From: Candidatus Giovannonibacteria bacterium
Lineage (GTDB): Bacteria > Patescibacteriota > Minisyncoccia > JACPKW01 > UBA11713
Length of the DNA: 43,975 nt
Direction: 5' to 3'
Assembly (NCBI GenBank): GCA_023266875.1
Contig: JAHFOJ010000005.1
Span: forward strand, 1 to 43,975
Shown: piece by piece, positions 13,415-43,719 of the stretch
Numbering within the stretch: the first letter of the stretch is position 1
How the letters are laid out: each line of letters begins with the position of its first letter
Notes under the pieces: model-generated
The model's database searches: none
What the model saw: only the letters and a program-made list of their open reading frames with translations
What the model was told of the DNA's origin: nothing
Position numbers and translations under genes: made by a program

Positions 13415-13618
13415 CTAATATTCAATTCCTCGCCGCGCTTTTTTGCCTTCGTTATATAAATGCTTCACTTCTTTTATTTCCGAGACTATATCAGCTATTT
13501 CAATCAATTCTTGCGGCGCGTCTCTGCCGGTTAAAATCAAGTCTATTTTTTTGCCTAACTTAACCGCGCGAAAAACCCATCCGTCTACTTTCCTAATTCT
13601 CAAAACCCAAGTTTTCAT
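13415..13618 (-). pseudogene. Truncated second copy of the C-terminus of the cobA-like gene
   Basis: [45 protein letters not shown] matches the C-terminus of the 14311..14829 product; no P-loop part. Confidence 0.85.
13416..13555. repeat. Direct repeat A1 (copy of cobA 3' end)
   Basis: About 140 bp ungapped against 14312..14451; 13 mismatches by eye; first 61 bases identical. Confidence 0.9.
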
Positions 13619-13690
13619 AATTTATTATCTAGACGCAATAATTTTAAAATGATACCTTGTTCTTAGAAAAATCGGAAGGAGAACATTAAC

Positions 13691-14239
13691 ATGTTTATGA
13701 CAGAATCGGTAGCCAAAAATATAGGCCATGGCTCAGAAAAGCCCTCGTGGGAAAAAGATATTAACCAAGCGTTTCTAGGCGTTTTTATATACACTCGTTT
13801 GCGCAAAGTCATGCACGGCAAAAGCACCAAAGAAGAACAAGAATATCTCAGGAAAGCACTGGATTTTTTCAAGAGCGCCCAAGAAGGATACCAAATACTC
13901 ACAACTAAGAACCATGCAACCATTTCAAAAGCTTTTTTCCGCTCCGACAAAGCAATGGACAATTTAAGCATTATCTTTGAGATATTGACACAGTGCCAGC
14001 AGGATCAGTGTTTCGTCCACGACAAAGACTTTGAAGCCGGGCGGCGAGAACTCTTCGAACTCGCCGCAAAAGAAAATGGAACAAGCGACCTCTTGGAAAA
14101 ATGTATTTCAACGCTTGAAGCAATTCTGGAGGAACGCCCCATAAAACCTTCTGACGTTGCTTTACCGGCTTTTTTCTTCAAGGTATTTTACAAAGAAGCG
14201 CACACGCGACTTTCATATCCAAGAAACGGCTGCTTCTAA
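13691..14239 (+). CDS. Hypothetical protein, accessory cargo between repeats A1 and A2
   Basis: 182 aa; SD GAAGGAG; own terminator at 14267..14303. Confidence 0.7.
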   Translation: MFMTESVAKNIGHGSEKPSWEKDINQAFLGVFIYTRLRKVMHGKSTKEEQEYLRKALDFFKSAQEGYQILTTKNHATISKAFFRSDKAMDNLSIIFEILTQCQQDQCFVHDKDFEAGRRELFELAAKENGTSDLLEKCISTLEAILEERPIKPSDVALPAFFFKVFYKEAHTRLSYPRNGCF

Positions 14240-14266
14240 AATATTAACAACCCAACAAAAAATTCG

Positions 14267-14303
14267 GCCGGTGAGTCGTGTAAGACTCGCCGGCTGTTTT
14301 TTA
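14267..14303 (+). terminator. Rho-independent terminator
   Basis: GCCGGTGAGTC / GACTCGCCGGC stem followed by TGTTTTTTATT. Confidence 0.85.
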
Positions 14304-14310
14304 TTAAATT

Positions 14311-14829
14311 TTAATATTCAATTCCTCGCCGCGCTTTTTTGCCTTCGTTATATAAATGCTTCACTTCTTTTACTTCTGAGACTGTGTCGGCTATTTCAAT
14401 CAATTCCTTAGGCGCATCTCTCCCGGTTAAAATTAAATCTATTTTTCTTGCCCAGCATTCTTCGGCAAATTTTAAAACTTTTTCAAGCTTAATTAAATTT
14501 AGCGCGAGCGCGTTATTTATTTCATCCAAAATAATCATGTTCCATCGGCCAGACTGAAGTTCAGAAAATGCTTCATCCAAAGTTTTCTCGGCGGCTTTTT
14601 CGTGCTCGGCGCGCGGAAGCTTATCGCCCAAAATTCCGACAAAACCCAAACCGCCTTTTCGAAGCTCGAACCCCTTAGGCCAAATTTCTTTATTATCCTC
14701 CCCCGACTTCCAAGGCCCTTTGATAAACTGAAAAATTAAAACTCGCTTCCCGTCGCCAACAGACCGAAAAGCCTGTCCCAAAGCGGATGTTGTTTTACCT
14801 TTTCCGTTACCTGTGATAACTATGAGCAT
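14311..14829 (-). CDS. cobA: Cob(I)yrinic acid a,c-diamide adenosyltransferase (CobA/CobO/BtuR family)
   Basis: MLIVITGNGKGKTTSALGQAFRSVGDGKRVLIFQFIKG...; IILDEINNAL; LTGRDAP. Confidence 0.88.
   Translation of the reverse strand: MLIVITGNGKGKTTSALGQAFRSVGDGKRVLIFQFIKGPWKSGEDNKEIWPKGFELRKGGLGFVGILGDKLPRAEHEKAAEKTLDEAFSELQSGRWNMIILDEINNALALNLIKLEKVLKFAEECWARKIDLILTGRDAPKELIEIADTVSEVKEVKHLYNEGKKARRGIEY
14312..14451. repeat. Direct repeat A2 (3' end of intact cobA)
   Basis: Partner of 13416..13555. Confidence 0.9.
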
Positions 14830-14881
14830 GGACTTTATTTTAACATCGTGCTACATTGTTGAAAACTTGAAAGGAGTATAT

Positions 14882-15286
14882 ATGGGCAGAAAAAGATCTG
14901 CAGACAAATTCAGAGAGAACAGAGAACTCATTGCACAACTGATTGTCGAGGGAATAAAGAGGTCTGGAAGAACAGCAACAGAAATTTGCCGAGAAGCAGG
15001 AGTCGACCCAACATATCTTTCGAAAGTTAAAAAGGGCACTAAGAGTTTCGGCCGGGCTAAAATAAGCGCTTTCGCAAGAGTTCTCGAGATACCAATAGAC
15101 AAGCTGGAGGAGGCTGCGGGCTACAAAATCGAGAATAGAGATATACTGAAAATGCCGTTATCGGAAATAATCTCTACTTGGACGGCGTTCGATCGTTACG
15201 GGATAACAAGAGAACATCTCGCACGAATCAGAAATGATCCGGAATTCGCAAAAACGATCGCCCAAACATTTCGATTGCTGTCATAA
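14882..15286 (+). CDS. HTH (XRE-like) transcriptional regulator
   Basis: MGRKRSADKFRENRELIAQLIVEGIKRSGRTATEICREAGVDPTYLSKVKKGTKSFGRAKISAFARVLEI; SD AAAGGAG. Confidence 0.75.
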   Translation: MGRKRSADKFRENRELIAQLIVEGIKRSGRTATEICREAGVDPTYLSKVKKGTKSFGRAKISAFARVLEIPIDKLEEAAGYKIENRDILKMPLSEIISTWTAFDRYGITREHLARIRNDPEFAKTIAQTFRLLS

Positions 15287-15377
15287 AACCAACCCAAATA
15301 AAAACCTGCCGTCAGGAAAACCTGCTCCGGCGGGTTTTCCTTATTAAAGTGAGAAATATATTTTTTTAGAGCAAATT

Positions 15378-18155
15378 TTATGAGCAGCTCCCCAAATTCT
15401 CTCCGCAGGAGGGACACGTGTAGCAGGAACCAGTTCTGACCATTATCGCCCCGCATCGGCAGGCTGGGGCGTCAGAGAACGAGAATGTTATCGGGCTTTG
15501 TAGAATATTTGCTGAAACAGTTTGCGCCCTAGTCCCTTCAGTTTTAACTTCCGCGGGCGCGTCTGCGACGTGGCCATTTTCTTCCAAATTTTGCGTCGTA
15601 TAAATCCCCATCGCCATCTGATCTTCTACAGACAAGAATTTTATCGCGAGAAATTTTGATATGTAATCCAAAATGGATTTAGCAACCATAATATCTGGAT
15701 TATCTGTGTACCCCGCAGGCTCGAAGCGGGAATGAATCGTCTTTTTTATTAAAGTTTTTACCGGCACGCCGTATTGTAGAGAAACAGACATCAAAATTCC
15801 GATAGAGTCCAAGAGCCCTGAGATTGTTGACCCTTCTTTAGCCATGCGGATAAATATTTCACCGAGCTTCCCATCGTCATATACCCCGTAGTGAATATAG
15901 CCTTCGTGCCCCGCTACTGAAAATTTGTGCCGTCCGGATTTCACATCTGCCGGCAAGCGCCTGCGCCCATCCTCTTCGCGCATCGGATCTTTCGCTTTGA
16001 CTTCGTCTACGGCTTTCTCATTCTCAATTTTCTTTTTGCCGGTGTTGAGCGGTTGCGATCCTTTTGAGCCATCACGATAAATCGCGATGGCTTTAAGGCC
16101 AAGCCGCCATGATTCCATATAAACGTTAGCAACGTCTTCAAGCGTCACAGACGCTGGAAGATTTACAGTTTTTGAAATTGCGCCAGAAATGAATGGCTGT
16201 GCTGCAGCCATCATGCGAACATGGCCCATATAATGAATCGCGCGCAGGCCTGAAGGCGCATGCACGGCGCAATCAAAAACCGCAAGATCTTTATCTTTCA
16301 GATGCGGTGCGCCCTCGATTGTGTCATTCGACAAAATATATTCCGTGATTTCTTTCACGTCCGGATCTGAATATCCAAGATTTTTCAAAGCTTGCTCCAC
16401 AGTCCGGTTTATCATTTTCAAGAATCCCCCGCCCACCAATTTTTTATAAGTAATGAGTGAGAAAGCCGGCTCCACGCCGGTCGTGTCGCAATCCATCATA
16501 AATGAAATTGTTCCGGTCGGGGCAAGCACTGTCGCCTGCGAATTTCTGATGCCGTAAATTTTTCCGCGCTCATACGCCATCGTCCAGCATAAATTCGCCG
16601 CATCCCAAACCGCTTTGGGTAAATATTCTTTTGAAATTTTCTTGGCTTCATCGCCGTGCATACGCAAAACATTTAACATCGGCTCTCTATTTTTTTCAAA
16701 TCCATTGAACGGGCTTACCGCTTCGGCAACGTAAGTTGACGTGACATATGCCTCTCCGGTCATTATCGAGGTGATAGCACCTGCCCAAGCGCGTCCAGCA
16801 TCGGAATCGTATGGAAGTCCCTTAAACATTAGAAATGCTCCGAGGTTCGCATAGCCCAAGCCTAATTCGCGGTAATTTGTGGCGTTCTTCCCGATTTCTT
16901 CTGTCGGATATGAAGAATGCCCAACGATGATGTCTTGCGCAATTATGAAAATTTTTACTGTATGCCGGAAACCCTCTATGTCAAAATTTTCTTTTTCGTC
17001 GAGAAAGCGCATCAAATTGATCGAGGCAAGGTTGCATGCGGAATTATCCAAATGCATATATTCCGAGCATGGGTTTGATCCGTTGATGCGCCCGGTATTT
17101 GAGCAGGTGTGCCACTTATTTATAGTTGTATCAAACTGCATTCCAGGATCGGCGCAGTGCCATGCGGCATCCGAGATTAATTGCATCAAATCTTTCGCCC
17201 GAACGCGCTCAACTGCTTCCCCGGTTTTCACCATTTTCAATTCCCAAGAACCATCATCCTCGACAGCGCGCATAAACTCGTCCGTGGCGCGGACGGAATT
17301 ATTCGCATTCTGGAAAAATACGTTCCCGTAAATTTCCCCATCAATCGCGTCGTCGTAACCAATTTGGATAAGCGCCTTTGCTTTTTCTTCTTCCTTCCAT
17401 TTGCACAAAATAAAATCTCTGATGTCCGGATGATCGGCATTCAAAATTACCATTTTTGCCGCACGACGATTCTTGCCGCCAGACTTAATCGTTCCCGCAA
17501 TCGCATCAGCGCCTTTCATGAATGACACGGGTCCGGATGCTTTGCCTTTGCGCCCGAGAGTCTCCCGCGAAGAACGGATCGCCGAGAGATTCGCCCCGGC
17601 ACCCGAACCGCCGGAAAAAATAAAAAGTTCCGTGCGATACCAATCAGAAATTGATTCTTTTGTGTCTTCAACTTTCAAAATGAAACAAGCCGAGCACTGC
17701 GGCTTTGCTTCTACCCCTACGTTGAACCAAACCGGGGAATTAAATGAGCCCTTTTGGCTTACTAAGATGTGGGTCAATTCTTCGTTGAAAACTTTAGCAT
17801 CTTTATCTGACACAAAATAGCCGGATTCCTTGCCCCAAGCGGTTATTGTGTCAGAAACGCGGGATATTAGCTCTTTTGCCGAAGATTCCCGACCAGCATG
17901 CCCAACATGCCCGGAGAAATATTTCTCCGCGACAATATCGCATGCGGTCTGCGACCAAAAACTGGGGACTTCAACATCGTTTTGTTCAAAAACAATTTCG
18001 CCTTTAGCATTTTTAATTAAGGCGCGGCGTTTCTCCCAACGAAACTGGTCAAAAGGATGGATGTCATCTTTTGAAAAGAAGCGCTTGAGAGAAATGCCCT
18101 TCCCTAAATTAGAAGAAATTCCGGGGAGAGCTTTAGTTAAAACCTCGGGAGACAT
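15378..18155 (-). CDS. nrdJ: Vitamin B12-dependent (class II) ribonucleotide reductase
   Basis: 925 aa; SSKELISRVSDTITAWG, NPCSEYMHLDNSACNLASINL, ATVLAPTGTISFMMDCDTTGVEP, C-terminal CRCGAIMVRTGSCYTCPSCGENLG zinc ribbon. Confidence 0.96.
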   Translation of the reverse strand: MSPEVLTKALPGISSNLGKGISLKRFFSKDDIHPFDQFRWEKRRALIKNAKGEIVFEQNDVEVPSFWSQTACDIVAEKYFSGHVGHAGRESSAKELISRVSDTITAWGKESGYFVSDKDAKVFNEELTHILVSQKGSFNSPVWFNVGVEAKPQCSACFILKVEDTKESISDWYRTELFIFSGGSGAGANLSAIRSSRETLGRKGKASGPVSFMKGADAIAGTIKSGGKNRRAAKMVILNADHPDIRDFILCKWKEEEKAKALIQIGYDDAIDGEIYGNVFFQNANNSVRATDEFMRAVEDDGSWELKMVKTGEAVERVRAKDLMQLISDAAWHCADPGMQFDTTINKWHTCSNTGRINGSNPCSEYMHLDNSACNLASINLMRFLDEKENFDIEGFRHTVKIFIIAQDIIVGHSSYPTEEIGKNATNYRELGLGYANLGAFLMFKGLPYDSDAGRAWAGAITSIMTGEAYVTSTYVAEAVSPFNGFEKNREPMLNVLRMHGDEAKKISKEYLPKAVWDAANLCWTMAYERGKIYGIRNSQATVLAPTGTISFMMDCDTTGVEPAFSLITYKKLVGGGFLKMINRTVEQALKNLGYSDPDVKEITEYILSNDTIEGAPHLKDKDLAVFDCAVHAPSGLRAIHYMGHVRMMAAAQPFISGAISKTVNLPASVTLEDVANVYMESWRLGLKAIAIYRDGSKGSQPLNTGKKKIENEKAVDEVKAKDPMREEDGRRRLPADVKSGRHKFSVAGHEGYIHYGVYDDGKLGEIFIRMAKEGSTISGLLDSIGILMSVSLQYGVPVKTLIKKTIHSRFEPAGYTDNPDIMVAKSILDYISKFLAIKFLSVEDQMAMGIYTTQNLEENGHVADAPAEVKTEGTRAQTVSANILQSPITFSFSDAPACRCGAIMVRTGSCYTCPSCGENLGSCS

Positions 18156-18288
18156 AATATATTCATACTAACTTTAATAAAGATGCAAAACTATGCAAAA
18201 GGTTAAAAAAAGCTGTGCATAACAGACGCCTAAAGAAAAACCGCGCCACAAACTTCGGCGATGCATTAAGAGAAAGCAAAAACTTCAC

Positions 18289-19401
18289 TTAAATCTTTTT
18301 AGAACGCCTCAAGAAAGCTGGGACAGCATCCCAAGTTTCATCAGCATCTTTCAAATCCGTCTCTTGTTCAGGAGTTTTAGATATAACATTCTCGCGTATA
18401 AGCGGCAGCTCTGATGACTGGAAAAGAGTCGACGCGCGCCCGAAACCCGACGGGAAACCGGAAGCGATTACGGTAACTTTAAACTCCCCTTTACGCAATC
18501 TTTCGTCTCTAACCGCTCCAAAAATAATTTTTGCTTCCTTGTCCACGTTCTCCGTGATTAATTTTGCAGCTTCCTGAACCTCCCACATAGACAGGTCGTC
18601 TTTCCCTGCAATAGTGAAAAGCACTCCGCGCGCGCCTTCGGCCGAAATTTCCAGCAGTGGCGAGTTTACAGCGAGCCGCGCGGCTTCCTGCGCCCGATTC
18701 TTTCCCGAAGCAACACCAATTCCGATTATCGCCGATCCGGAATTGGTGAGTACCGTGCGAACATCGGCAAAATCCACGTTAACAATTCCTGGAGTTATTA
18801 TTAAGTCAGTAATTCCCTCAACTGCGTGGCGCAATACTTCGTCACACATCGCAAAAGCCGTTAAAAACGGGGTGTCGCGTTCGACAATGTTCAAGAGTCT
18901 GTCATTAGGTATTGCGATCATGGAGTCAACTGACTTTCGAAGGCGCGCTAAACCTTCTTCGGCGATCCTTCTTCTCGTCTCTCCTTCAAACGCAAATGGT
19001 TTTGTTACAACAGCAACAGTCAACGCACCCAAATTTTTTGCGATGTCCGCGATAATCGAAATTCCTCCCGTGCCAGTGCCTCCTCCCATGCCGCATGTAA
19101 CAAAAATCAAATCCGCACCTCGGAGCATCTCTTCAAGCTCTCTACGGTTTTCTTCTGCAGCCTGCCGCCCAATTTCAGGATTCATTCCCGCACCCAAACC
19201 CCGCGTAATATTTTTACCTACGTGAAGCTTTTTGGGAGCGAGCGCGTTATGCAAATCTTGAGCATCAGTGTTGACTGCAATAAAATCAACTCCTTTGACT
19301 TTAGAGCGAATCATATGGTCGACGGCATTGCAGCCAGAACCGCCTATTCCAACTACCTTCAGGCGCGCCGATGTTTCAAACTCTGGTTTAACTTGGGGCA
19401 T
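18289..19401 (-). CDS. ftsZ: Cell division protein FtsZ
   Basis: VVGIGGSGCNAVDHMI, GGGTGTGG tubulin signature. Confidence 0.97.
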   Translation of the reverse strand: MPQVKPEFETSARLKVVGIGGSGCNAVDHMIRSKVKGVDFIAVNTDAQDLHNALAPKKLHVGKNITRGLGAGMNPEIGRQAAEENRRELEEMLRGADLIFVTCGMGGGTGTGGISIIADIAKNLGALTVAVVTKPFAFEGETRRRIAEEGLARLRKSVDSMIAIPNDRLLNIVERDTPFLTAFAMCDEVLRHAVEGITDLIITPGIVNVDFADVRTVLTNSGSAIIGIGVASGKNRAQEAARLAVNSPLLEISAEGARGVLFTIAGKDDLSMWEVQEAAKLITENVDKEAKIIFGAVRDERLRKGEFKVTVIASGFPSGFGRASTLFQSSELPLIRENVISKTPEQETDLKDADETWDAVPAFLRRSKKI

Positions 19402-19453
19402 AATAGTATGAACTAAGACTAATGGTTTTAAAATCGCGAGTCAAACTCCTATA

Positions 19454-24138: not shown

Positions 24139-24642
24139 ATGGCTGGCTATTATATAGTAGGGCTTGGGAATCCGGGGTCAGAATTTGACGGCTCGCCCCA
24201 CAACACAGGCAAATTAATGGCCGAGATATTCGCGGAAAAATACAAAGGCAAAAAAGCAAAAGTAATTCTTCCTGATACTTTTATGAATCAGTCAGGAAAA
24301 GCCGTCAAAGGGATCCCAGCGAAATGGTTAATCTTGCTTCATGATGATATTGATCTCCCGCTCGGGAAATTTAAAATAGTCTTTAACCGCGGTTCGGGAG
24401 GGCATAAAGGAGTTGAATCCGTAATACGAGCAATTGGTTCGGAAAAATTCGCGCGCATTCGAATCGGCATTTCCCCAAAAAAGAAACCGAATCATAGGGA
24501 TTTAATGAAATACCTAACCCGCAAATTCAAACCATCCGAATCTGCCGCTATCAAAAAAATATCTAAAAAAGTTTTAGAAGCCCTAGACTCGATCATCGCA
24601 GAAGGCCACGAAAAAGCGATGAGTTTATATAATAGTAATTAA
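24139..24642 (+). CDS. pth: Peptidyl-tRNA hydrolase
   Basis: YIVGLGNPGSEFDGSPHNTGK, FMNQSGKAV, LLHDDIDLPLGK, GGHKGVESVI. Confidence 0.92.
   Translation: MAGYYIVGLGNPGSEFDGSPHNTGKLMAEIFAEKYKGKKAKVILPDTFMNQSGKAVKGIPAKWLILLHDDIDLPLGKFKIVFNRGSGGHKGVESVIRAIGSEKFARIRIGISPKKKPNHRDLMKYLTRKFKPSESAAIKKISKKVLEALDSIIAEGHEKAMSLYNSN
24611..24641. repeat. Direct repeat B1 (pth 3' end)
   Basis: aaaaagcgatgagtttatataatagtaatta; 30/31 match to 25274..25304. Confidence 0.92.
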
Positions 24643-24646: not shown

Positions 24647-24955
24647 ATGGTTGTGCGATTTTTTGACTCTCAAGTTGAAAAATTCATTCATTCTTTGGAG
24701 CACGAAACTATTGCCAAAGTTTTACGCACTATTGATCTCTTAGAATTATTCGGAAATAATTTAAGTCTGCCGCATAGCAGAAAAGTTGGAAACGGCTTAT
24801 TTGAACTCCGTATTAGGGGCAAGCAAGAAGTTAGAATTTTTTATACTTTCCATAAAAATGAAACTATACTTTTGTATGGATTTCTAAAGAAGGCCCAACG
24901 CACACCACAGAAAGAAATTAGATATGCCATACAAAAAATTAAAAAGTTGACTTAA
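24647..24955 (+). CDS. RelE/HigB (Gp49-like) family toxin
   Basis: KVGNGLFELRIRGKQEVRIFYTFHKNETILLYGFLKKAQRTPQKEI; followed by HTH antitoxin. Confidence 0.88.
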   Translation: MVVRFFDSQVEKFIHSLEHETIAKVLRTIDLLELFGNNLSLPHSRKVGNGLFELRIRGKQEVRIFYTFHKNETILLYGFLKKAQRTPQKEIRYAIQKIKKLT

Positions 24956-24975
24956 TATAACATATCCGTTATATT
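24947..24975 (+). promoter_or_regulatory. Promoter and operator for the antitoxin gene
   Basis: TTGACT-17 nt-TATATT; inverted repeat AATATAAC-ATATCC-GTTATATT at 24954..24975. Confidence 0.65.
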
Positions 24976-24981
24976 GGAACT

Positions 24982-25260
24982 ATGAACAATTATTCAAAAT
25001 TTAAAAAACAAATCTTAAAGAATCCCGCTGTTAAAAAGGAATATGAAAAACTCGGTCCAGAATTCGAGATTATTAGTCTATTAATAAAAAAGCGCATTGA
25101 TCAAGGGCTAAGCCAAGGAGAGCTTGCCGAAAAAATAGGAACTAAACAGTCCTCAATCTCCCGTTTTGAATCAGGAACATATAACCCTACAATAGATTTC
25201 CTCCAAAAAATCGCGTCAGGCCTAGATTCAAAATTAAAAATTTCCATCGGTGCAAAATGA
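24982..25260 (+). CDS. XRE/HigA-family HTH antitoxin
   Basis: DQGLSQGELAEKIGTKQSSISRFESGTYNPTIDFLQKIASGL. Confidence 0.9.
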   Translation: MNNYSKFKKQILKNPAVKKEYEKLGPEFEIISLLIKKRIDQGLSQGELAEKIGTKQSSISRFESGTYNPTIDFLQKIASGLDSKLKISIGAK

Positions 25261-25273
25261 AAACAGATCAACA

Positions 25274-25304
25274 AAAAAGCGATGAGTTTGTATAATAGTA
25301 ATTA
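25274..25304. repeat. Direct repeat B2 (copy of pth 3' end)
   Basis: Encodes KAMSLYNSN-stop like the pth C-terminus. Confidence 0.92.
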
Positions 25305-25307
25305 ATT

Positions 25308-25670: not shown

Positions 25671-27629
25671 ATGACCGGACCGCCTAAAACATATAGAGAG
25701 ATAATGATCGCCGCCCCTACCCCGTCTTTTCTGGAACGGGGCGATTTGCCATTGGCGGAAAAATTAGACGAATATAAAAATCTTGCCTTAAAAAATAATT
25801 TCTGGCGCAGAAATATTATTTTTATTGAGATTGGGCAGACGAAAAAACTCTCAGAGTTTATTCGCGAATTAACGGACATGGGATATGTCCGACATATAGG
25901 TGATTTGCATAAAGGAGAATTTTTCGGGCAAGGCGGACTTATAACTATTTATCCAATAAATTCTGAAACCCCAATAATAATCGAGTTCGAGGGAAACATA
26001 ATAGCGACCATACGCGAGGCTAAGATTATCCCTCACGAGAAGAAATTGCCTAAGATCGCAAAGCACGATTTAGAGCCCGGAGATTATGTTGTTCATGAAG
26101 ACCATGGGATAGGAACATACCGCGGCAAAAATGAGAACGATTTTCTTGTTCTCGAGTATGCCCCTGCGCGCGCCGGGGGCGAGGCAGACAAGTTATTAAT
26201 CCCTGAAAATATGGCAGCTAAGATATCTCCGTATCTTGGGCTTAAAAATCCAAAAATAAATCGGCTAGGAACTCCGTTATGGTTTGAGACAAGAAAGAAA
26301 GCTAAAGAAGATATAATCGCTTTTGCAAAAGAACTCCTAGTTCTATACAAAACGCGCTCTGAAATTAAGCGCCCTCCCTATGAGTCATCGCACTTCGAAA
26401 AAAATATTTGGGAGGATTTTTCCGCCGAAGGCGGATCCGCCTCTAGCGGAGAATACGAACTTACGCCGTCGCAAGAAGGAGCAATCGAGGAAATATTTGA
26501 AGATTTCGAAAAGCCCGAGCCGATGGAACGGCTTGTCGTGGGCGACGTCGGATTCGGAAAAACGGAAGTTGCCCTTCGCGCGGCGCTCAGAGTTGTCCTG
26601 AATGGGAAACAAGTCGCAATTCTCGCCCCGACAACGATATTGGCCGATCAGCATTCGCAAATATTTCGAAAAAGGTTAGAGAAAGAAGGAATTGAGATCG
26701 AAAGACTGACCCGTCTTGAATCAAGAGAAAAAACAAAAGAAATTTTGCATAAGTTACGGGACGGGAAAATAGATATTGTTGTCGGGACACATAGAATCTT
26801 GTCCAAAGATATTGAGTTTATAAATCTTGGATTGTTAATTATAGACGAAGAACAAAGGTTCGGAGTTAAACATAAAGAAATCTTGAAACAAAAATACCCC
26901 AGCGTGGATATTCTCTATCTTTCCGCAACTCCGATCCCGCGAACTCTGGCTTTTTCACTATCTAAAATTCGTCCTCTCTCGCAGATTACAGATCCCCCTC
27001 TTGGCAGAATGCCAATTAAAACATTCGTTCTGCCAAGAACAGAGAAAATAATCGAGGAGGCAATATCCCAAGAATTAAAAAGAGGCGGGCAGATCTATTT
27101 CCTCTCGCCGCGAATTATGAAAATGCCTTTTATCCTTGAAAAACTTGAGCATCAGTTTCCAAAAATTACAAAAGCGATACTCCACGGCAAAGTCGGCGAG
27201 AAACATTTGGTCAAAACAATGCGCGAATTTCGCGAAGGGAAAATAAAAATATTAGTCTCGACAACAATTATTGAAAACGGACTGGATATTTCATCCGTAA
27301 ATACATTAATTGTTGAAGATGCAACCCGGCTCGGGCTTTCGCAATCTCATCAGCTAAGAGGTCGCGTTGGACGAACAAATATCCAGGCGTATGCGTACTT
27401 TTTATATCCGTCCCAAAAGTTAACGCCAAAGGCCGAAAACCGCCTTGAAGCATTGCTGTCGTTTCAAGAACTCGGCGCGGGGTTTGAAATTGCAAAGCGC
27501 GATCTCGAGCTCCGAGGCGCGGGCAACATCCTAGGCCGCGAACAAACTGGAGTCTTAAATAAAATTGGGTGGAATTTATATTTCCAGATGTTGGGCGAAT
27601 CACTTGAAGATTTAACCGCGCCCGCATAA
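25671..27629 (+). CDS. Mfd/TRCF-like DEAD-box helicase with CarD/RID domain, lacking the N-terminal UvrB-like and C-terminal D7 regions
   Basis: LEPGDYVVHEDHGIGTYRGK (RID), VVGDVGFGKTEVALRAALRVV (Walker A), LLIIDEEQRFGVKHKE, LRGRVGRTNIQAYAYFLYP; 652 aa. Confidence 0.88.
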   Translation: MTGPPKTYREIMIAAPTPSFLERGDLPLAEKLDEYKNLALKNNFWRRNIIFIEIGQTKKLSEFIRELTDMGYVRHIGDLHKGEFFGQGGLITIYPINSETPIIIEFEGNIIATIREAKIIPHEKKLPKIAKHDLEPGDYVVHEDHGIGTYRGKNENDFLVLEYAPARAGGEADKLLIPENMAAKISPYLGLKNPKINRLGTPLWFETRKKAKEDIIAFAKELLVLYKTRSEIKRPPYESSHFEKNIWEDFSAEGGSASSGEYELTPSQEGAIEEIFEDFEKPEPMERLVVGDVGFGKTEVALRAALRVVLNGKQVAILAPTTILADQHSQIFRKRLEKEGIEIERLTRLESREKTKEILHKLRDGKIDIVVGTHRILSKDIEFINLGLLIIDEEQRFGVKHKEILKQKYPSVDILYLSATPIPRTLAFSLSKIRPLSQITDPPLGRMPIKTFVLPRTEKIIEEAISQELKRGGQIYFLSPRIMKMPFILEKLEHQFPKITKAILHGKVGEKHLVKTMREFREGKIKILVSTTIIENGLDISSVNTLIVEDATRLGLSQSHQLRGRVGRTNIQAYAYFLYPSQKLTPKAENRLEALLSFQELGAGFEIAKRDLELRGAGNILGREQTGVLNKIGWNLYFQMLGESLEDLTAPA

Positions 27630-27692
27630 ATTGTTTGAAGAACTTTTGGAGGGGAAATAAAAAACACCTCGCGAGATCATTGACCTCGCGAG
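27603..27692. repeat. Direct repeat C1 (mfd-like 3' end and downstream hairpin)
   Basis: Matches 28782..28874 at roughly 85-90% by eye with small indels; includes the stop codon and CTCGCGAG hairpin. Confidence 0.88.
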
Positions 27693-27721: not shown

Positions 27722-28060
27722 CTACCCATGGCGAGCGTGGAGCCGCAATTTACGGTTGAGCTCTCTAGCACGGGCGACGTGGTCTTCGTTATGCATAGGC
27801 GTAGGCGGGATATGAAAATTGATTGTTTGACCTTCTTCGCCCGATCTTGTCCCCAAAGCAAAGAAGGTCATATTTTGATTGACTCCCTTTTTGATCACTG
27901 CTGGATCAACCCAAATGTAAAAACCTTGTCCCATTGCTCTTAGCGCTTTACCACCGCCTCTGGCAGTTGCTTCCTGAAAGTGAAGATCAGGAAGCTGATC
28001 CCAAATCTCCCAATGCAACTCATCGAGACGGTTTGTCGGTTTGCAACGAACGTATTCCAT
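27722..28060 (-). CDS. Hypothetical protein, cargo between repeats C1 and C2
   Basis: SD TAGGAGGT upstream of ATG 28060; 112 aa. Confidence 0.6.
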   Translation of the reverse strand: MEYVRCKPTNRLDELHWEIWDQLPDLHFQEATARGGGKALRAMGQGFYIWVDPAVIKKGVNQNMTFFALGTRSGEEGQTINFHIPPTPMHNEDHVARARELNRKLRLHARHG

Positions 28061-28123
28061 TTTTAATTACCTCCTAGAAATTTTTATCACTGTAACATAG
28101 ACTCTTAAAATTTGCAAGCACTA

Positions 28124-28152
28124 TAAAAGCCCCATTCCTAAGGCTTTTTGGA
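28124..28152. terminator. Likely bidirectional terminator
   Basis: AAAAGCC...AAGGCTTTTT. Confidence 0.55.
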
Positions 28153-28170
28153 ATAGTTCAAAGCGAGGCT

Positions 28171-28416
28171 TTATTTTGGATGGGATTTTATTGAATGCAG
28201 AACATACACATCGCCTTCGATTGTAAAATAAAAGCGCCACCCTCCGGTGACGCGCGCTTGCCATAAATCTCTGGCCTCATCGTATTTCTTGGCATGCAGA
28301 GAAGAGTGGCGAAGATTTTGGAGAAGTAATATTATTTTTCGGTCAAATACTCTCTGGATAGTTTCCGGCGCTTTAGCATAGTCATCATCAAATTTATTTG
28401 TCGTGCGAAATTTCAC
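28171..28416 (-). CDS. RelE/ParE-superfamily toxin-like protein
   Basis: MKFRTTNKFDDDYAKAPETIQRVFDRKIILLLQNLRHSSLHAKKYDEARDLWQARVTGGWRFYFTIEGDVYVLHSIKSHPK. Confidence 0.82.
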   Translation of the reverse strand: MKFRTTNKFDDDYAKAPETIQRVFDRKIILLLQNLRHSSLHAKKYDEARDLWQARVTGGWRFYFTIEGDVYVLHSIKSHPK

Positions 28417-28679
28417 TTAGACTTTTTAAGTTTCTTTGCTTCGCGATGGAGATGACGAATAAGATCGCGCGCAGAGGAAAAAACAGGAGAAACCTTTCCT
28501 TCGCGGTATTGTCGAAGCGAAATTGCGATATCACGATCTACAATACTTTTAGGAGTAAGGGTTATTTTTTTGCCTTGCGTTGTAACTTCCAACAAATCCC
28601 CCACTTCCAAACCCGCCTGTGTGCGAAGCGCGACCGGAAGCGTTACCTGATATTTATCTTTGATTTTTACTATTGCCAT
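28413..28679 (-). CDS. AbrB/MazE-like antitoxin
   Basis: MAIVKIKDKYQVTLPVALRTQAGLEVGDLLEVTTQGKKITLTPK (SpoVT-AbrB); overlaps the toxin gene by 4 nt. Confidence 0.85.
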   Translation of the reverse strand: MAIVKIKDKYQVTLPVALRTQAGLEVGDLLEVTTQGKKITLTPKSIVDRDIAISLRQYREGKVSPVFSSARDLIRHLHREAKKLKKSK

Positions 28680-28781: not shown

Positions 28782-28874
28782 CTTGGAAGATTTAACCACG
28801 CCCGCATAAATGTTTGAAAAACTCTTGGCGGGTGGAATAAAAAACACCTCGCGAGATCATGACGACCTCGCGAG
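28782..28874. repeat. Direct repeat C2 (copy of mfd-like 3' end and hairpin)
   Basis: Reads LEDLTTPA-stop, like the mfd-like C-terminus SLEDLTAPA-stop, plus the same hairpin. Confidence 0.88.
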
Positions 28875-36530: not shown

Positions 36531-36602
36531 TTTTTTCCTTTTACTTTATTATGTCGCGTATCATAATGAATCTAGCTAAGCAATTGCGGTCTCAACCATC
36601 TC

Positions 36603-37340
36603 ATGTCCAAAAATAGAAAGAAAATAGCAATCACATATATAGTAATAGGCCTTATAGTTTTAAGAGTTGCCTTTCGTGAATTTCCCGCGCGAGCGATCTT
36701 TGAATCGCGCCCGATTATTGCCCAAAATAACACCGAAGGAAGCATTGAGTTAGACGCTTCGGGGTTTCATAAACCAAATGATAATAGATCTACCCGCACA
36801 GCAGGAACCAGAGGCACATCTAGCTCAAGCGGAACAGCTGGGACTGGGAATATCCCTTCCGGACTCGGGACTACTACCGGGACTACTACACAGACTGGCG
36901 GCAATAGTTCAACCACAAACACGCAAATTGTTCCTCTTTCAGAAAGGTTAAGTCACCGAGACGCTTGCGGACTCTTGGCTAGAGTCGGCATTGATTTATT
37001 TTCGAGTACTCGTAATTTAAATTGTTCCGACACAAGCAGCAGAATAAGCCTCGAAGGAGCCCCAGCGACCGCTATACAGAAACTTATACAACTTGCTAAG
37101 GACTGCAAGTGTTCATTTGACCTCATGGGAGGTACTGAAACATCTATTCATGGCCCAAACACTGAACACGGCCCGGGAAAAAGCGCATTTGATCTAAAAA
37201 TAAAAGGGAATACAACCTATGCCAAATTAGAAACCGCGGTGAGAAAAGCCGGCTGGAGTTTAGAATGTGATACATTCGGGAAAGAATCACCCGTCCCTTG
37301 CTCAAGCACGGATATCAGATACATGCATATAAGGATTTAA
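36603..37340 (+). CDS. Hypothetical membrane-anchored protein with putative M15/Hedgehog-like domain
   Basis: N-terminal TM, Thr/Gly/Ser linker, C-terminal TEHGPGKSAFDLKI...IRYMHIRI. Confidence 0.55.
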   Translation: MSKNRKKIAITYIVIGLIVLRVAFREFPARAIFESRPIIAQNNTEGSIELDASGFHKPNDNRSTRTAGTRGTSSSSGTAGTGNIPSGLGTTTGTTTQTGGNSSTTNTQIVPLSERLSHRDACGLLARVGIDLFSSTRNLNCSDTSSRISLEGAPATAIQKLIQLAKDCKCSFDLMGGTETSIHGPNTEHGPGKSAFDLKIKGNTTYAKLETAVRKAGWSLECDTFGKESPVPCSSTDIRYMHIRI

Positions 37341-37347
37341 TTTCACT

Positions 37348-38634: not shown

Positions 38635-38637
38635 AAT

Positions 38638-39738
38638 TTAAAACGGTACGCCGAATGTTTCATTTGGTATCTGCAGTAAAATGTGGTTAAACCACAGAGT
38701 ATCAATTGATTGTTTATCAACTTTTCCGTTCGCGATCTTCCTAGAGAAGGCCCCATCGCCGTTCGCAAGCGGGCTTTTTTGAAAATCAACGTTCTCTAAA
38801 ATCAGATATTGCATCAGTCCCTTCAATTCATTTATATATCTATCCTCTTTCGTGAAGTTATAAAGCGAAGCTAACAATTCGCCGCAGACAAGCCCCGGGT
38901 GTATTATCACTCCGTTTAACACATCCGATTTATTGAAATCTTTCGCATGCGCCGCGAGAGCCGCGCTTTCCGCAAAATCGCGCGCCGAATTCAAGTCATC
39001 TTTATTGCCAGTAAGGCTATAGACATACATCCCCCCCAAAGGTTCGAAACAGCTCGCCCTTGTTATAGATAGCGTATTTTCTTTATAAACCAGCTTGCTT
39101 TCTCGACTAAATAACGCGCCTCCATCATCAAAAACTTGCCTTGCGCGGGTGATATCGGCATCTTTCCCAGTTACTTTAGCCAACAACACAAATCTTTCCA
39201 GTTTTTGAATCCAAGTAACAAGATTCTGCGGCTTTATCCCAAAATCGTTTATTAAAAAAGCTCCTAATAGACTGACGTTAAATTTATAATCCGCATCGGC
39301 ATTCACGATCGCCGAAAAATTTCTCCTGCAAAGATCAGGTTTAATCTTGCATATCTGCACTTGATACAGCGTTTCGGCTATTTCCCTCTTTTTTATCTCA
39401 CGGTCATCGGCAGCCGCCGCCAGCAATCTTAAGTTTTGAATGTGCAAAGTCGGCAGGTAATAGGTCGAAAAAAGCTCCCCATCCCTGATTAGAATTTCCG
39501 GATTACATTTTGCTTGGCTACATAAAAAGTGCGGGCGCCAAAAATCGCCGTATCCCCTTCGATCCTTTTTTATAGCCACATTCTCTATAAAATTGTTACT
39601 AATTCGGGCTATTTCAAGCGCCGAAAGTGTGCTTTTAGTGCTTCGCCGGTCCCCAAAAAGCCCCCCTTGGTAAGCGAAATAAGCCGCCCCCGCAATAATA
39701 ACGACGAGTATTAGTATGAAAAGATTTTTATTAGTCAT
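38638..39738 (-). CDS. Hypothetical membrane-anchored protein, possible alpha/alpha-toroid
   Basis: 366 aa, N-terminal TM, predominantly helical. Confidence 0.6.
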   Translation of the reverse strand: MTNKNLFILILVVIIAGAAYFAYQGGLFGDRRSTKSTLSALEIARISNNFIENVAIKKDRRGYGDFWRPHFLCSQAKCNPEILIRDGELFSTYYLPTLHIQNLRLLAAAADDREIKKREIAETLYQVQICKIKPDLCRRNFSAIVNADADYKFNVSLLGAFLINDFGIKPQNLVTWIQKLERFVLLAKVTGKDADITRARQVFDDGGALFSRESKLVYKENTLSITRASCFEPLGGMYVYSLTGNKDDLNSARDFAESAALAAHAKDFNKSDVLNGVIIHPGLVCGELLASLYNFTKEDRYINELKGLMQYLILENVDFQKSPLANGDGAFSRKIANGKVDKQSIDTLWFNHILLQIPNETFGVPF

Positions 39739-39869
39739 AAGTTTATTTTATATGTTTTGCCGTACAAACAAAAGTTGATAAGAAAAAGTAATAATAATCA
39801 TTGCGACTCTCATTATAATAACACTTACTGGTTTTGTATCGCAATTTTCCCAATTTGTTCGACATTTAA

Positions 39870-40070
39870 TCCAAACTATCTATCAAACCAAGAAGCGCTC
39901 TTGAAGTTAAGAAACAAGATCCAGGAATAATAATTCATGATGCGACAGCTTGGAATAGAGGCCTCCCAGAGGCCATCGAAATTATCGAAGAAGTGATAAA
40001 AAAGGTGCAGAGCGCTAATATTGTGAAAAGTGTACCGAATCACAAAAAATATACTTTCTCATATGCATTA
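39870..40070 (+). pseudogene. Possible gene remnant resembling the C-terminus of a polysaccharide deacetylase
   Basis: Open frame without start: SALEVKKQDPGIIIHDATAWNRGLPEAIEIIEEVIKKVQSANIV. Confidence 0.35.
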
Positions 40071-40086
40071 TCCTTAATTCTAGCCC

Positions 40087-40127
40087 TGTGGATAAGAAAT
40101 ATCAAAATATGTTACAATTTAAGCATT
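40087..40127. repeat. Direct repeat D1
   Basis: tgtggataagaaatatcaaaatatgttacaatttaagcatt; 38/41 match to 41918..41958. Confidence 0.88.
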
Positions 40128-40224
40128 AAATTGTATCTCTCAAATAAAAATGCGCATAAAATGTTATGCACAGAGCTATATGAACACCGTGACAAGCAAT
40201 TAAAGGCTTTTCTGCGCTAGCAGC

Positions 40225-40275
40225 TTGACTATCAGCTATAAACAGCTATAATCAGACATATAGGTTATAGCCTAT
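40225..40275 (+). promoter_or_regulatory. Promoter and operator-like palindrome upstream of fic
   Basis: TTGACT-16 nt-TATAAT at 40225..40252; ATAGG-TTATAG-CCTAT at 40260..40275. Confidence 0.65.
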
Positions 40276-40280
40276 TATTT

Positions 40281-41345
40281 GTGACTGAAATTACACAAAA
40301 ATTTGACCACAGAATCAAGTCGCCCGAACCGCACATCGTGGCCCTTTTGGCCGCCATCGATGAGGCGAAAGGTCAATTCAAAGCCGGCCTCCGGATGATG
40401 CCGCAAGCGAATACGAACCTGAAAAAATCAGTGCTGATCACCTCGGCCGGCGCCTCGACTCGTATCGAAGGCGCAAAGCTCAATGACGAGGATGTTGCGA
40501 AAGTTATGCGGGGGCTCGCGATCTCAAAATTCGCCGATCGAGATTCGCAGGAAGTGCAAGGCTATCTTGAAACGCTGCAAAATGTGTTTGACAATTTTGA
40601 GACGCTGCCTATTCGAGAGGGCGTCATCACTTCGCTTCACAAAGAGCTGCTCAAGTATTCAACCAAAGACGAACTCCAGCGCGGCCGATACAAGAAAAAA
40701 GAAAATACAGTCGGCATGCTAGGTCCCGACCGCAAGGTCGCGCGCATAATGTTCGAAACAACCAAAGCATATCTGACACCGAAAGAAATGCAGGAACTCG
40801 TAGATTGGACTGCTGAAGCCCTGCAAGAAAATCGATTTCATCCACTGCTCATCATCGCCAACTTTATTGTTGAGTTATTGAAGATCCATCCGTTCGAAGA
40901 TGGCAACGGGCGTCTTTCGCGCGTCCTGACCAACCTTCTTTTGCTCCGCGCCGGCTATTCATTTGTGCAATATGTCTCGCATGAGCAGCTTGTCGAGAAA
41001 AGAAAAGATGAATATTACATCGCGCTGCGGAAATCGCAGGAGACATTCAAAACCGATCACGACACAATCGCACCATGGCTGAATTTCTTCCTTGCGGTGA
41101 TAAAAGAACAGGCGACCAATGCGCTTACTTATCTTGAAGAAGAAAAAGTTGAGGATACGCTCTCGCCAAAACAATACGAGGTTTGGAAGTATGTCGCAAG
41201 CGTTGGCGAGGCAAGCCCGGGCGATATCGTGAAAGCGACCAGCGTAGGTATGCCAACTGTCAAACAAGCGCTCGACAGGCTTCTTGAGCTTGGAAAAATA
41301 AAGCGGATTGGCCGGGGACCGGGGACGCGGTACGTTAAAATATAA
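40281..41345 (+). CDS. Fic-family protein with N-terminal inhibitory-helix motif and C-terminal winged HTH
   Basis: HPFEDGNGRLSR Fic core; STRIEG fits (S/T)xxxE(G/N); C-terminal SPGDIVKATSVGMPTVKQALDRLLELGKIKRIG. Confidence 0.92.
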   Translation: MTEITQKFDHRIKSPEPHIVALLAAIDEAKGQFKAGLRMMPQANTNLKKSVLITSAGASTRIEGAKLNDEDVAKVMRGLAISKFADRDSQEVQGYLETLQNVFDNFETLPIREGVITSLHKELLKYSTKDELQRGRYKKKENTVGMLGPDRKVARIMFETTKAYLTPKEMQELVDWTAEALQENRFHPLLIIANFIVELLKIHPFEDGNGRLSRVLTNLLLLRAGYSFVQYVSHEQLVEKRKDEYYIALRKSQETFKTDHDTIAPWLNFFLAVIKEQATNALTYLEEEKVEDTLSPKQYEVWKYVASVGEASPGDIVKATSVGMPTVKQALDRLLELGKIKRIGRGPGTRYVKI

Positions 41346-41348
41346 GAC

Positions 41349-41426
41349 ATGGAAAACTATTTACCAAACAAGAAAATTCTTTTGATTATCATATTGGCAA
41401 TTGGCGCTCTATTTTTTTATTTTTGA
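41349..41426 (+). pseudogene. Short ORF, possible truncated membrane-protein N-terminus
   Basis: MENYLPNKKILLIIILAIGALFFYF-stop. Confidence 0.35.
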
Positions 41427-41498
41427 TTTTTCTGATGCTGAAGCTGATTTAAACCCCTTGATTGCCCTTGGCCTAAAAAATATTCCAGCCATAGAGTT

Positions 41499-41708
41499 TT
41501 ATTTCACTCCAGAAAATTTAATTCTCTTTTGATTTTTTGGGTCAGCTAAAGCATCTTTTAATCTTATAGTATCTTCTATATCTTCTCGTGCATCTTCCCA
41601 CTTTTTATAAGTGTCCCAATCCAAAACAACATAGCGCGGGGAGCCGTGCTCATTTATTATAGCTGGTTTTTTTGTTTTTATCGCCAGTGAAATTGCTTGT
41701 GTAGTCAT
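41499..41708 (-). CDS. Phd/YefM-family antitoxin
   Basis: MTTQAISLAIKTKKPAIINEHGSPRYVVLDWDTYKKWEDAREDIEDTIRLKDAL. Confidence 0.8.
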   Translation of the reverse strand: MTTQAISLAIKTKKPAIINEHGSPRYVVLDWDTYKKWEDAREDIEDTIRLKDALADPKNQKRIKFSGVK

Positions 41709-41917
41709 GTATTTATTTTATTATGTCTATAGAATAAATCAATCTTCCGAAAACTTTATTTTTCTTGCCCACTTAAATGCTCCGGCTTTTGGCGGGTTAT
41801 CGTGTAAGTGGATTAAATATTTATATTTATTCTTCATTCCACATAACTCTCAATTATGGCCAAATATATTGAAATGGGACTTCAATAATAGGCACCAAAA
41901 TCTTTGGTGTGGGGGCT

Positions 41918-41958
41918 TGTGGATAAGAAATATCCAAGTGTGTTACAATTTAAGCATT
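41918..41958. repeat. Direct repeat D2 (promoter-like region of the pilin operon)
   Basis: Partner of 40087..40127; contains TACAAT -10-like sequence. Confidence 0.88.
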
Positions 41959-42024
41959 GATTATAAGCCGCTTCCAGGTCGAAAAGGAGGCGTAATATTA
42001 TAAGAATTAATTAATAACTTATTA

Positions 42025-42378
42025 ATGAAAACATTTAAAAAAGCCCTCCCTTACATAATCGCTGTATCGCTCCCGATCTTGGCATTTGCCCAAAACGCTG
42101 GGCAAATTACGACCTCGCTTACGAACATACAGAACATATTGAACAGTATAATTCCGATTCTGCTCATTATCGCGACTATAGTTTTCTTGTGGGGAGTCAT
42201 CCAGTTCATCACAGCAGGCGCGGATGAAGAAAAGCGCGGAAACGCGAGATCGCTCATGATCTACGGGCTAATCGCGCTATTCGTCATGGTTGCAGTTTGG
42301 GGAATCGTTCGCGTGCTTGTCCAGTTCTTCGGAGTTGGTGGGGTAGTCCAGCCGCTTCGCCCGGGCGACATTCAATAA
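42025..42378 (+). CDS. VirB2/TrbC-like pilin protein 1
   Basis: Signal sequence, two TMs, FLWGVIQFITAGADEEKRGNARSLMIYGLIALFVMVAVWGIVRVLVQFFG. Confidence 0.8.
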   Translation: MKTFKKALPYIIAVSLPILAFAQNAGQITTSLTNIQNILNSIIPILLIIATIVFLWGVIQFITAGADEEKRGNARSLMIYGLIALFVMVAVWGIVRVLVQFFGVGGVVQPLRPGDIQ

Positions 42379-42383
42379 TTTTT

Positions 42384-42650
42384 GTGAACGTTGCATACGC
42401 CAAAACAGCGGAACAGGTCATTGGCGTTATAAGTTCAGGCATTCTCCAGCCGATAATTTATGTGCTCTTTGCGCTCGCCTTTGTAATATTCCTTTATGGA
42501 GTTGTGGAGTTTATCGCAAACGCGTCCAATGAAGAAAGGCGGACTGAAGGCAAACGGCATATGATTTGGGGAGCGCTCGGACTTTTTCTAATGTTTGCCG
42601 TAGGCGGAATCTTGAGGATATTAATAAATTTTGTGTCATCAATTCGCTAA
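42384..42650 (+). CDS. VirB2/TrbC-like pilin protein 2 (GTG start)
   Basis: MNVAYAKTAEQVIGVISSGILQPIIYVLFALAFVIFLYGVVEFIANASNEERRTEGKRHMIWGALGLFLMF; paralogous to neighbours. Confidence 0.78.
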   Translation: MNVAYAKTAEQVIGVISSGILQPIIYVLFALAFVIFLYGVVEFIANASNEERRTEGKRHMIWGALGLFLMFAVGGILRILINFVSSIR

Positions 42651-42651
42651 T

Positions 42652-43227
42652 ATGCCTAAGAAAAGCAAAAAAACAAAAATTAAATTCACTGTCATTGAGA
42701 AAATCGGGATGACTTTTGTATTCGCCATGCTAATCGTTTCTATAGCATCCGCCCAGACATTCCAAGGCATTGCTACAAACATTGGCAATCTTCTTAACTT
42801 GGTTGTTCCAATATTGTTTATGGCGGCAACAGTTGTGTTTCTCGCCGGAGTAGTCAAATACATAGCGGCCGCGGGAAACGAAGAGAAACGCGAGGAAGGA
42901 AAGCAATTTATTTTCTGGGGTTTGATCGGCCTTTTTGTGATGGTCGCGATCTGGGGAATCATCAATCTTTTCGTAATGTTCTTCTTTAGTGGACGCCTGC
43001 CAAGCGCGCCAGACGTGCCTCAACTTCCGGGATATACTGGGGGAACAAGCGGAGGAGGTACTGGGAGTGGAGGTGGTGGTACCGGAGGAGGCGGAACTGG
43101 TGGCGGGGCAACTGGAGCCGACATTTGGGACCAAGGCGGTTTTGGAGGCTCCACTGCAAATAATAACCAACAAGCATGCGAGCAATCAGGTGGTATATGG
43201 ACAGGAACAGCTTGTAACGTTTATTGA
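42652..43227 (+). CDS. VirB2/TrbC-like pilin protein 3 with Gly-rich C-terminal extension
   Basis: FLAGVVKYIAAAGNEEKREEGKQFIFWGLIGLFVMVAIWGIINLFV followed by GGTSGGGTGSGGGGTGGGGTGGG. Confidence 0.8.
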   Translation: MPKKSKKTKIKFTVIEKIGMTFVFAMLIVSIASAQTFQGIATNIGNLLNLVVPILFMAATVVFLAGVVKYIAAAGNEEKREEGKQFIFWGLIGLFVMVAIWGIINLFVMFFFSGRLPSAPDVPQLPGYTGGTSGGGTGSGGGGTGGGGTGGGATGADIWDQGGFGGSTANNNQQACEQSGGIWTGTACNVY

Positions 43228-43264
43228 TTCCTTATATTGAATAATAAATAAGTCGAAGTTTCAA

Positions 43265-43290
43265 AATCCCCGCGCTCGCGGGGATTTTGA
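43265..43290. terminator. Bidirectional terminator between pilin operon and tRNA-Gly
   Basis: AAAATCCCCGCG/CGCGGGGATTTT perfect stem. Confidence 0.8.
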
Positions 43291-43296
43291 ATTGTG

Positions 43297-43367
43297 TGCG
43301 GCCAGCGGTAATCGAAACCGCGTCTGTTCCTTGGCAAGGAACCGTTCTGCCACTAAACCATGGCCGC
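43297..43367 (-). tRNA. tRNA-Gly(GCC)
   Basis: Reverse strand GCGGCCATGGTTTAGTGGCAGAACGGTTCCTTGCCAAGGAACAGACGCGGTTTCGATTACCGCTGGCCGC; anticodon loop TTGCCAA. Confidence 0.93.
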
Positions 43368-43610
43368 ATTATTTACTAATTTCTCTATTGCGCTACGCTT
43401 TTTCCAAGATTTTATTTGCGTCTCTTTTTCTCTGGCATCACTCAAACTCGGATATTCCATATTATAAACTAACCGCCACGGCATATAACGTTTAGTAGAA
43501 GTGACCATGCCCGAGTTATGTAATTTTAACCTTTTATAAATATCTTTAGTACTTCCGATATAATATGATTCGTTTGCGTCTGACTTTAATATATAAACAT
43601 AAAATTTCAT
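43353..43610 (-). CDS. GIY-YIG nuclease superfamily protein; stop codon lies inside tRNA-Gly
   Basis: MKFYVYILKSDANESYYIGSTKDIYKRLKLHNSG...; 3' end overlaps the first ~15 nt of the tRNA. Confidence 0.88.
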   Translation of the reverse strand: MKFYVYILKSDANESYYIGSTKDIYKRLKLHNSGMVTSTKRYMPWRLVYNMEYPSLSDAREKETQIKSWKKRSAIEKLVNNAAMV

Positions 43611-43625
43611 GAAATTGATACGCTG

Positions 43626-43719
43626 CTGCCACTAAATCCCGATCCCCGACTTTAGTCGGGGATCATGGATCCTCGACTTCGCTATTATATTTTTAATTGA
43701 AAGTCGGGACCATGGCCGC
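43626..43719. repeat. Split second copy of the tRNA-Gly 5' segment
   Basis: ctgccactaaa (43626..43636) and accatggccgc (43709..43719) are contiguous in tRNA-Gly (43347..43367) but separated here by a ~72-nt hairpin-rich insert. Confidence 0.65.

Follow-up and report, generated by a model that had tools for sequence, protein, structure and literature searches.

The window analysed here, the whole of a 43,975-nucleotide contig (JAHFOJ010000005.1, our contig C19) in the 684 kb, 25-contig genome of a Candidatus Giovannonibacteria bacterium, contains five small accessory modules (A to E), each bracketed by two copies of a segment of the neighbouring resident locus. By gene content and size the genome looks like one of the Patescibacteria/CPR. 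Our analysis suggests, with a probability of roughly 0.6, that such modules are small cassettes, inserted together with a copy of the conserved end of their target, the cargo arriving with it. Module E belongs to a separate, nuclease-bearing class of tRNA-linked GIY-YIG elements, and this class is the most novel part of the findings.

A BLAST comparison of the window with itself gives exactly four significant pairs of direct repeats less than 3 kb apart, and these are the repeats of modules A (149 columns, 90% identity, 198 bits), B (35 bp, 94%, 55 bits), C (90 columns, 89%, 108 bits) and D (41 bp, 93%, 62 bits); ten dinucleotide shuffles of the window never produced a pair above 38 bits. One copy is always that of the resident locus, namely the intact 3' end of cobA, pth or an mfd-like gene (A to C) or a pilin promoter (D), while the other copy is displaced to the far side of the cargo (Table 1). 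Module E was recognised from the exact anatomy of its tRNA gene: the first 21 nt of tRNA-Gly are repeated, interrupted by a 73-bp palindromic insert, and the GIY-YIG open reading frame (ORF) ends inside the intact tRNA, its final codons (GCG GCC ATG GTT TAG) being nucleotides 1-15 of tRNA-Gly. An earlier sequence-only reading of this DNA had described five bracketed modules in which one repeat copy is the resident end and the cargo is added beside a core gene that stays intact, and the comparison bears it out on each of these points. Its estimate of 3-15% divergence between copies was too wide; the copies do differ, but by 6-11% in A to D.

The cargo families were assigned by Pfam, with PHROG used for the RelE-like ORF of C and the ORF of A. 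The adjacent family domains identify the cargo of B, C and D as predicted type II toxin-antitoxin (TA) modules; in C the MazE-type antitoxin is above the Pfam cutoff, the RelE-like ORF is assigned by PHROG only, and the accompanying 112-aa ORF has no convincing match. The resident gene of C encodes a 652-aa protein that matches positions 307-819 of TIGR00580, below cutoff, and is a reduced transcription-repair coupling factor. As the sequence-only reading had stated, no integrase or transposase is found among the window ORFs by reading of the ORF list, no hidden Markov model search having been aimed at them; a recombinase-like ORF and a RAYT-like transposase are encoded elsewhere in the genome.

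Synteny with six genomes of the same family (the G001-G006 series) reveals single-copy empty sites for every module except A. The pth and mfd genes are adjacent in G004, G006 and G003 (B), and rpsA lies almost next to mfd in G003 and G005 (C). A TGTGGATAA...TATAAT-type promoter is conserved in one copy ahead of pil1 in most sisters (D), and behind the pilins, at the corresponding position, G004, G002, G006 and G005 have tRNA-Gly without a GIY-YIG gene (E). Module A has no such comparison because cobA is absent from the sister genomes; in the window it adjoins nrdJ, encoding a B12-dependent ribonucleotide reductase (14311-18155 for the two genes), and both are missing at that place in the sisters. 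The possibility that the D repeat is a dispersed promoter was rejected, as no further copy occurs in the sampled genome (about 491 kb outside the window, which together with the window make up about 78% of the genome). Mobility of the TA pair of C was likewise not supported: its relatives are rare (7 of 286 genomes), and the close one, in G002, occupies the same mfd-rpsA interval but lacks the repeat, so that C may be partly inherited in place.

Table 1. Positions of modules A to E in the window, and of a dispersed element elsewhere in the same genome
Module	Feature	Position	Strand	Evidence or remark
A	Displaced copy of cobA 3' end, detached from any complete cobA	13408-13555	-	90% identical to 14304-14452
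A	Cargo: 182-aa ORF, unknown family	13691-14239	+	Pfam, none convincing; PHROG E=0.025 only
A	Resident gene: cobA/BtuR-type adenosyltransferase	14311-14829	-	3' end (14304-14452) is second copy
B	Resident gene: pth	24139-24642	+	24608-24642 is intact-gene copy, ending exactly at stop codon
B	Cargo: Gp49/RelE-type toxin (24647-24955), HTH_3 antitoxin (24982-25260)	24647-25260	+	Both above Pfam cutoffs
B	Displaced copy of pth 3' end	25271-25305	+	Self-BLAST
C	Resident gene: short mfd-like helicase	25671-27629	+	3' end and hairpin (27606-27692) are first copy
C	Cargo: 112-aa unknown ORF (27722-28060), RelE-like ORF (28171-28416), MazE/AbrB-type antitoxin (28413-28679)	27722-28679	-
C	Displaced copy of mfd-like 3' end and hairpin	28786-28874	+	Self-BLAST
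D	Outer copy of pilin promoter	40087-40127	+	Self-BLAST; sister comparison
D	Cargo: Fic/DOC-family protein	40281-41345	+	Above Pfam cutoff
D	Cargo: Phd/YefM-like antitoxin ORF	41499-41708	-	27.5 bits, just below Pfam cutoff of 29.8
D	Pilin promoter, directly 5' of pilin gene at 42025	41918-41958	+
E	Intact tRNA-Gly(gcc)	43296-43367	-
E	Cargo: GIY-YIG gene	43353-43610	-	PF01541, 63.7 bits, cutoff 22.6
E	Displaced tRNA-Gly 5' fragment in two parts, 43626-43636 and 43710-43719, with palindromic insert (43637-43709) between them	43626-43719	-
	Dispersed element, 110-116 bp	L020 7097-7206, 7596-7711; L027 3376-3491, 3937-4052		Own genome

The pth 3' end is a recurrent hotspot for differing cargo. 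Among 30 pth loci across the class, copies of the pth end within 1.5 kb are clear in our genome and in G068 and G081, which belong to two other families and have the copies around other ORFs, and a short copy is present in G002. In G068 (L246) two small ORFs are accompanied by an 85-bp pth-end copy that is still readable as the pth C-terminus, and in G081 (L242) two successive cassettes follow pth, their end copies being 95% and then 81% alike with distance. The pth-mfd gap of G002 holds another TA pair, a 54-aa ORF and an ORF assigned by eye to the PIN type, and after the pair comes a diverged pth end that reads KAMTLYNQ-stop. Similar brackets occur at other sites. They enclose a GIY-YIG gene at the end of uvrA (L110), a RelE pair at the 5' end of miaA (L087) and, with copies of a promoter on either side, a RelE/HTH pair (L074). 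In G006 the start of a gene is duplicated at an ORF pair, and G061, a single-contig genome, has several candidate promoter/terminator brackets.

The differences between copies bear on the origin of the repeats. Synonymous and nonsynonymous differences number 9 and 3 in cobA (A), 4 and 0 in uvrA, 10 and 10 in miaA, 9 and 5 in pth of G068, 2 and 0 in the G006 pair and 1 and 1 in our own pth (B). Pooled over these six coding pairs from several genomes, 35 of the 54 differences are synonymous (P=3e-12 if both copies were neutral, 9e-7 if one was); within the window the bias is significant for A only, B is uninformative, and C and D offer no coding test. The prevalence of synonymous differences indicates that the two copies of a coding pair were, on the whole, functional gene ends that diverged in separate lineages before they came together. 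This agrees with the proposal in the sequence-only reading that foreign DNA with a homologous gene end was involved. In G068, comparison with a genus-mate finds the resident pth copy alike at 66 of 87 positions and the displaced one at 58 of 87, so the far copy there looks foreign.

The principal alternative is plain target duplication, in which both copies derive from the recipient's own target and the displaced one then decays. Variable repeats of tens to more than 100 bp around addiction-type genes, as at the restriction-modification genes of Helicobacter (PMC1643837, PMC3874152), would fit it, as would the empty sites. However, the mostly synonymous coding differences have a probability of about 1e-6 even if one copy decays freely, and the far copy in L246 can still be read as a pth C-terminus. 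For B and D alone, or if resident genes were exchanged later, target duplication may still apply. We consider target duplication unlikely as the general explanation.

Of particular interest is the group to which E belongs. We examined 92 GIY-YIG loci, comprising class-wide matches, the window and G005; they are the top of a score-ranked list, not a random sample. A tRNA gene lies within 250 bp of 45 of these 92 best-scoring loci, against 3.5% of random positions, and in 28 loci the GIY-YIG gene is directly upstream of an intact tRNA in the same direction. Most of these 28 have a displaced piece of the tRNA 5' end ahead of the gene, compared with 4 of 114 control tRNAs (the minimum fragment lengths in the searches differ slightly, 10 and 12 nt), and a phylum-wide set repeats the pattern, with a tRNA fragment in 14 of 19 upstream matches. 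The usual order is a displaced tRNA 5' fragment split by a palindrome, the GIY-YIG gene and the intact tRNA; stems of at least 9 bp are present in 41% of these upstream leaders and 5.5% of random windows, and several of the ORFs have their stop codon inside the tRNA. Downstream GIY-YIG loci have almost no displaced 3' tRNA fragments, and that group may therefore differ.

The nuclease lineage tracks the tRNA type (27 changes against 35.8 when shuffled, with none of 200 shuffles as low), although the lineage of E nonetheless covers tRNA-Gly, tRNA-Ile and tRNA-Ala. Leader sequence outside the tRNA part is shared by 67% of nuclease pairs above 55% identity, against about 16%, and a tRNA-Ile element in a different class (L266) shares the palindrome of E; it therefore seems that the palindrome moves together with the element. 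The sequence-only reading had assigned all five modules to one shared process, and E, as a tRNA-linked GIY-YIG element with a travelling palindrome, has to be taken out of it. In G001 (L065, near 12601-12672) a native-like tRNA-Gly 5' fragment with a palindrome precedes a divergent intact tRNA-Gly, while the sisters keep the native gene; in this one case an element possibly replaced the tRNA and later lost its nuclease. At the other E-type loci the fragment is identical to the intact tRNA over its short length. A role of the palindrome in relieving tRNA misfolding was considered but not supported at equilibrium: whether or not the palindrome is present, the displaced 5' half in folded transcripts mostly wins over the acceptor stem of the intact tRNA. 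In titles and abstracts of the open-licence literature that combines GIY-YIG or homing endonucleases with tRNA and with these bacteria, no description of a tRNA-linked GIY-YIG class was found.

Islands classically attach at conserved gene ends and tRNAs, and the modules could be remnants of integrase-type islands at such sites, the integrase having been lost or acting in trans. A large recombinase-like ORF does adjoin repeated tRNA 3' ends in this genome (L019 1476-3026). The cargo, on the other hand, is 0.3-1.8 kb without integrase traces, the five sites are unrelated and lie within 30 kb, and E restores the 5' end of the tRNA rather than the usual 3' end, all of which makes such islands quite unlikely. 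It is very unlikely that the brackets are assembly chimeras, in which co-occurring strains with and without the cargo were joined and both versions of a gene end came to stand in a row. The copies do resemble orthologues from two lineages, and the genome is in 25 contigs; however, bracket-like cassettes occur in the single-contig G061, the tRNA elements recur with shared palindromes in dozens of genomes, G081 has two cassettes in a row, and strains that an assembler collapses would seldom differ by as much as 6-11%. It is hardly credible that tandem duplications without relation to each other, or repeated regulatory sites, flank small genes here by chance. Some pairs elsewhere do resemble operators or palindromes around regulators (L018, L051), but the repeats of A to D consist of gene ends or, in one module, a core promoter, the resident gene always owns one of the copies, and sisters have a single copy at the syntenic place for B to D.

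Several observations weigh against insertion of cassettes with their own gene ends. A genome-wide excess of such repeats, which the sequence-only reading called for, is not shown: the roughly 491 kb sampled outside the window holds only a few bracket-like pairs, mostly of other kinds, and the repeat pairs there are mostly low-complexity sequence, tRNA genes, paralogues and a dispersed CCCGTTAGAAA...TTTCTAACGGGG element, besides a small number of palindromes that surround regulators or a RAYT-like transposase. A to D cluster in the window, a post hoc observation given that the window was selected on their account. Bracketing is not a general trait of RelE and GIY-YIG loci by BLAST repeats, at 3 of about 51 against a null of 1.7% (not significant), in a test that misses most tRNA fragments because of their shortness or their split form. 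In many cases the tRNA fragment matches the intact tRNA exactly, an outcome that plain duplication would produce as well. The foreign copy need not always be the same one, and elsewhere it may be the reverse of G068; the repeats of B and D are too short to resolve the origin of either copy. Finally, the junctions are read from a multi-contig assembly, and no recombinase, circle or transfer event was seen.

If the modules are nevertheless cassettes that bring their own gene end, A to D would have arisen when DNA from a relative, consisting of a gene end or promoter plus cargo, recombined with a resident gene where the ends match. The resident gene would keep or regain a working end, with the cargo beside it and the other end copy remaining on the far side. 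The cassette between the two copies could then move again, as a circle or an ends-in fragment, to the same conserved end elsewhere, and TA cargo would persist because its loss by recombination between the repeats is penalised. For E, a GIY-YIG nuclease gene would insert at a tRNA gene with duplication of the 5' part of the tRNA, leaving the tRNA intact and, upstream, a fragment split by the palindrome; the nuclease could aid its own spread by cutting the empty tRNA site. We infer the joining of the DNA, which may be by RecA-type recombination, by circles or by an enzyme acting in trans, the direction of replacement, the addiction and the cleavage of the tRNA site by the nuclease. Patescibacteria are reported to keep recombination genes and DNA uptake (PMC12455944), which makes the proposed route plausible. 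A broader proposal is more doubtful, though possible: that Patescibacteria-like genomes harbour an integrase-free cassette system in which conserved gene ends, notably the pth 3' end, repeatedly receive cargo that brings a gene end of its own, and also widespread, undescribed tRNA-overlapping GIY-YIG elements that use the same trick with the palindrome as an integral part.

The nearest bacterial precedent, as far as the citing papers describe it, is insertion with long target duplication, which may also vary in length, of restriction-modification genes (Nobusato et al. 2000 and Furuta et al. 2010, both through PMC1643837, PMC3031569 and PMC3874152), but it implies copies of the recipient's own target. 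In those accounts, as here, small addiction-type modules lie beside core genes between variable direct target repeats and are found by way of related genomes; the repeats met here are 35, 41, 90 and 149 columns, with only a split 21 nt in E. Unlike in that system as described there, the copies here are 6-11% diverged and the coding pairs have a synonymous bias, so that one copy probably came with the cargo; the cargo consists of TA modules, unknown ORFs or a GIY-YIG gene, and the pth end is reused by differing cargo. For E the nearest mechanism, by analogy, would be that of fungal mitochondrial mobile ORFs (GIY-YIG or LAGLIDADG), which supply the C-terminus of a gene from a foreign source and push the native C-terminus aside (Beaudet et al. 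2013, PMC3630166). Both combine an endonuclease gene with an end that restores the host gene, and the displaced end, the native one in the fungi and possibly also in E, is left on the far side; in the fungal case the foreign end yields a hybrid gene. E differs in that it is bacterial, sits at tRNA genes, restores a 5' end and has a palindrome in the displaced part, and its cleavage activity is putative. In Arabidopsis, genes are excised as circles and re-inserted via flanking repeats (Woodhouse et al. 2010, PMC2869330). There too the moved genes lie within direct repeats homologous to the empty target, which is explained by circles that insert by homology, but these are plant nuclear genes, with no conserved gene-end hotspots and no TA or nuclease cargo. 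In integron cassette arrays one site collects successive small cassettes, which the two cassettes in a row after pth in L242 resemble. In contrast to integrons, each site here uses the local gene end; no attC-like site common to the loci was seen and no integron integrase was identified, in the course of work that included no dedicated search for them.

Other repeats and recombination-related genes were noted in the same survey. The dispersed CCCGTTAGAAA...TTTCTAACGGGG element (110-116 bp) is intergenic, and the genes beside it include rpsM and rpsK, which encode ribosomal proteins. Two 29-bp palindromes flank a 212-aa ORF that was assigned by eye as RAYT-like (Y1 transposase-like; L056 12767-13476, contig C14) and that is a candidate source of mobile palindromes. 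The recombinase-like ORF of L019 (516 aa; contig C5) and the tRNA-Ser 3' ends repeated beside it (1196-3026 in all) are probably an integrated element. PaaX-like regulator ORFs in two distant genomes each lie within palindromic repeats of 30-34 bp (L139 8393-9043 in G061, L018 6741-7423 in our own genome), which are either operators or cassette ends. Long stretches of degenerate tandem-like repeats, each of a few hundred bases and with short ORFs, are present in G106 (L144 6314-19973) and G045 (L154 430-4943).

These findings suggest how tiny, streamlined genomes may gain single genes without transposons, with conserved gene ends serving as portable homology. They also offer a concrete way to test whether TA modules are independently mobile, as has long been suspected, and at the pth hotspot the turnover of cassettes becomes measurable. 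The tRNA-linked GIY-YIG class, if confirmed, would be a new kind of tRNA-gene parasite, apparently common across the sampled phylum, and may account for the abundance of small GIY-YIG genes in these genomes.

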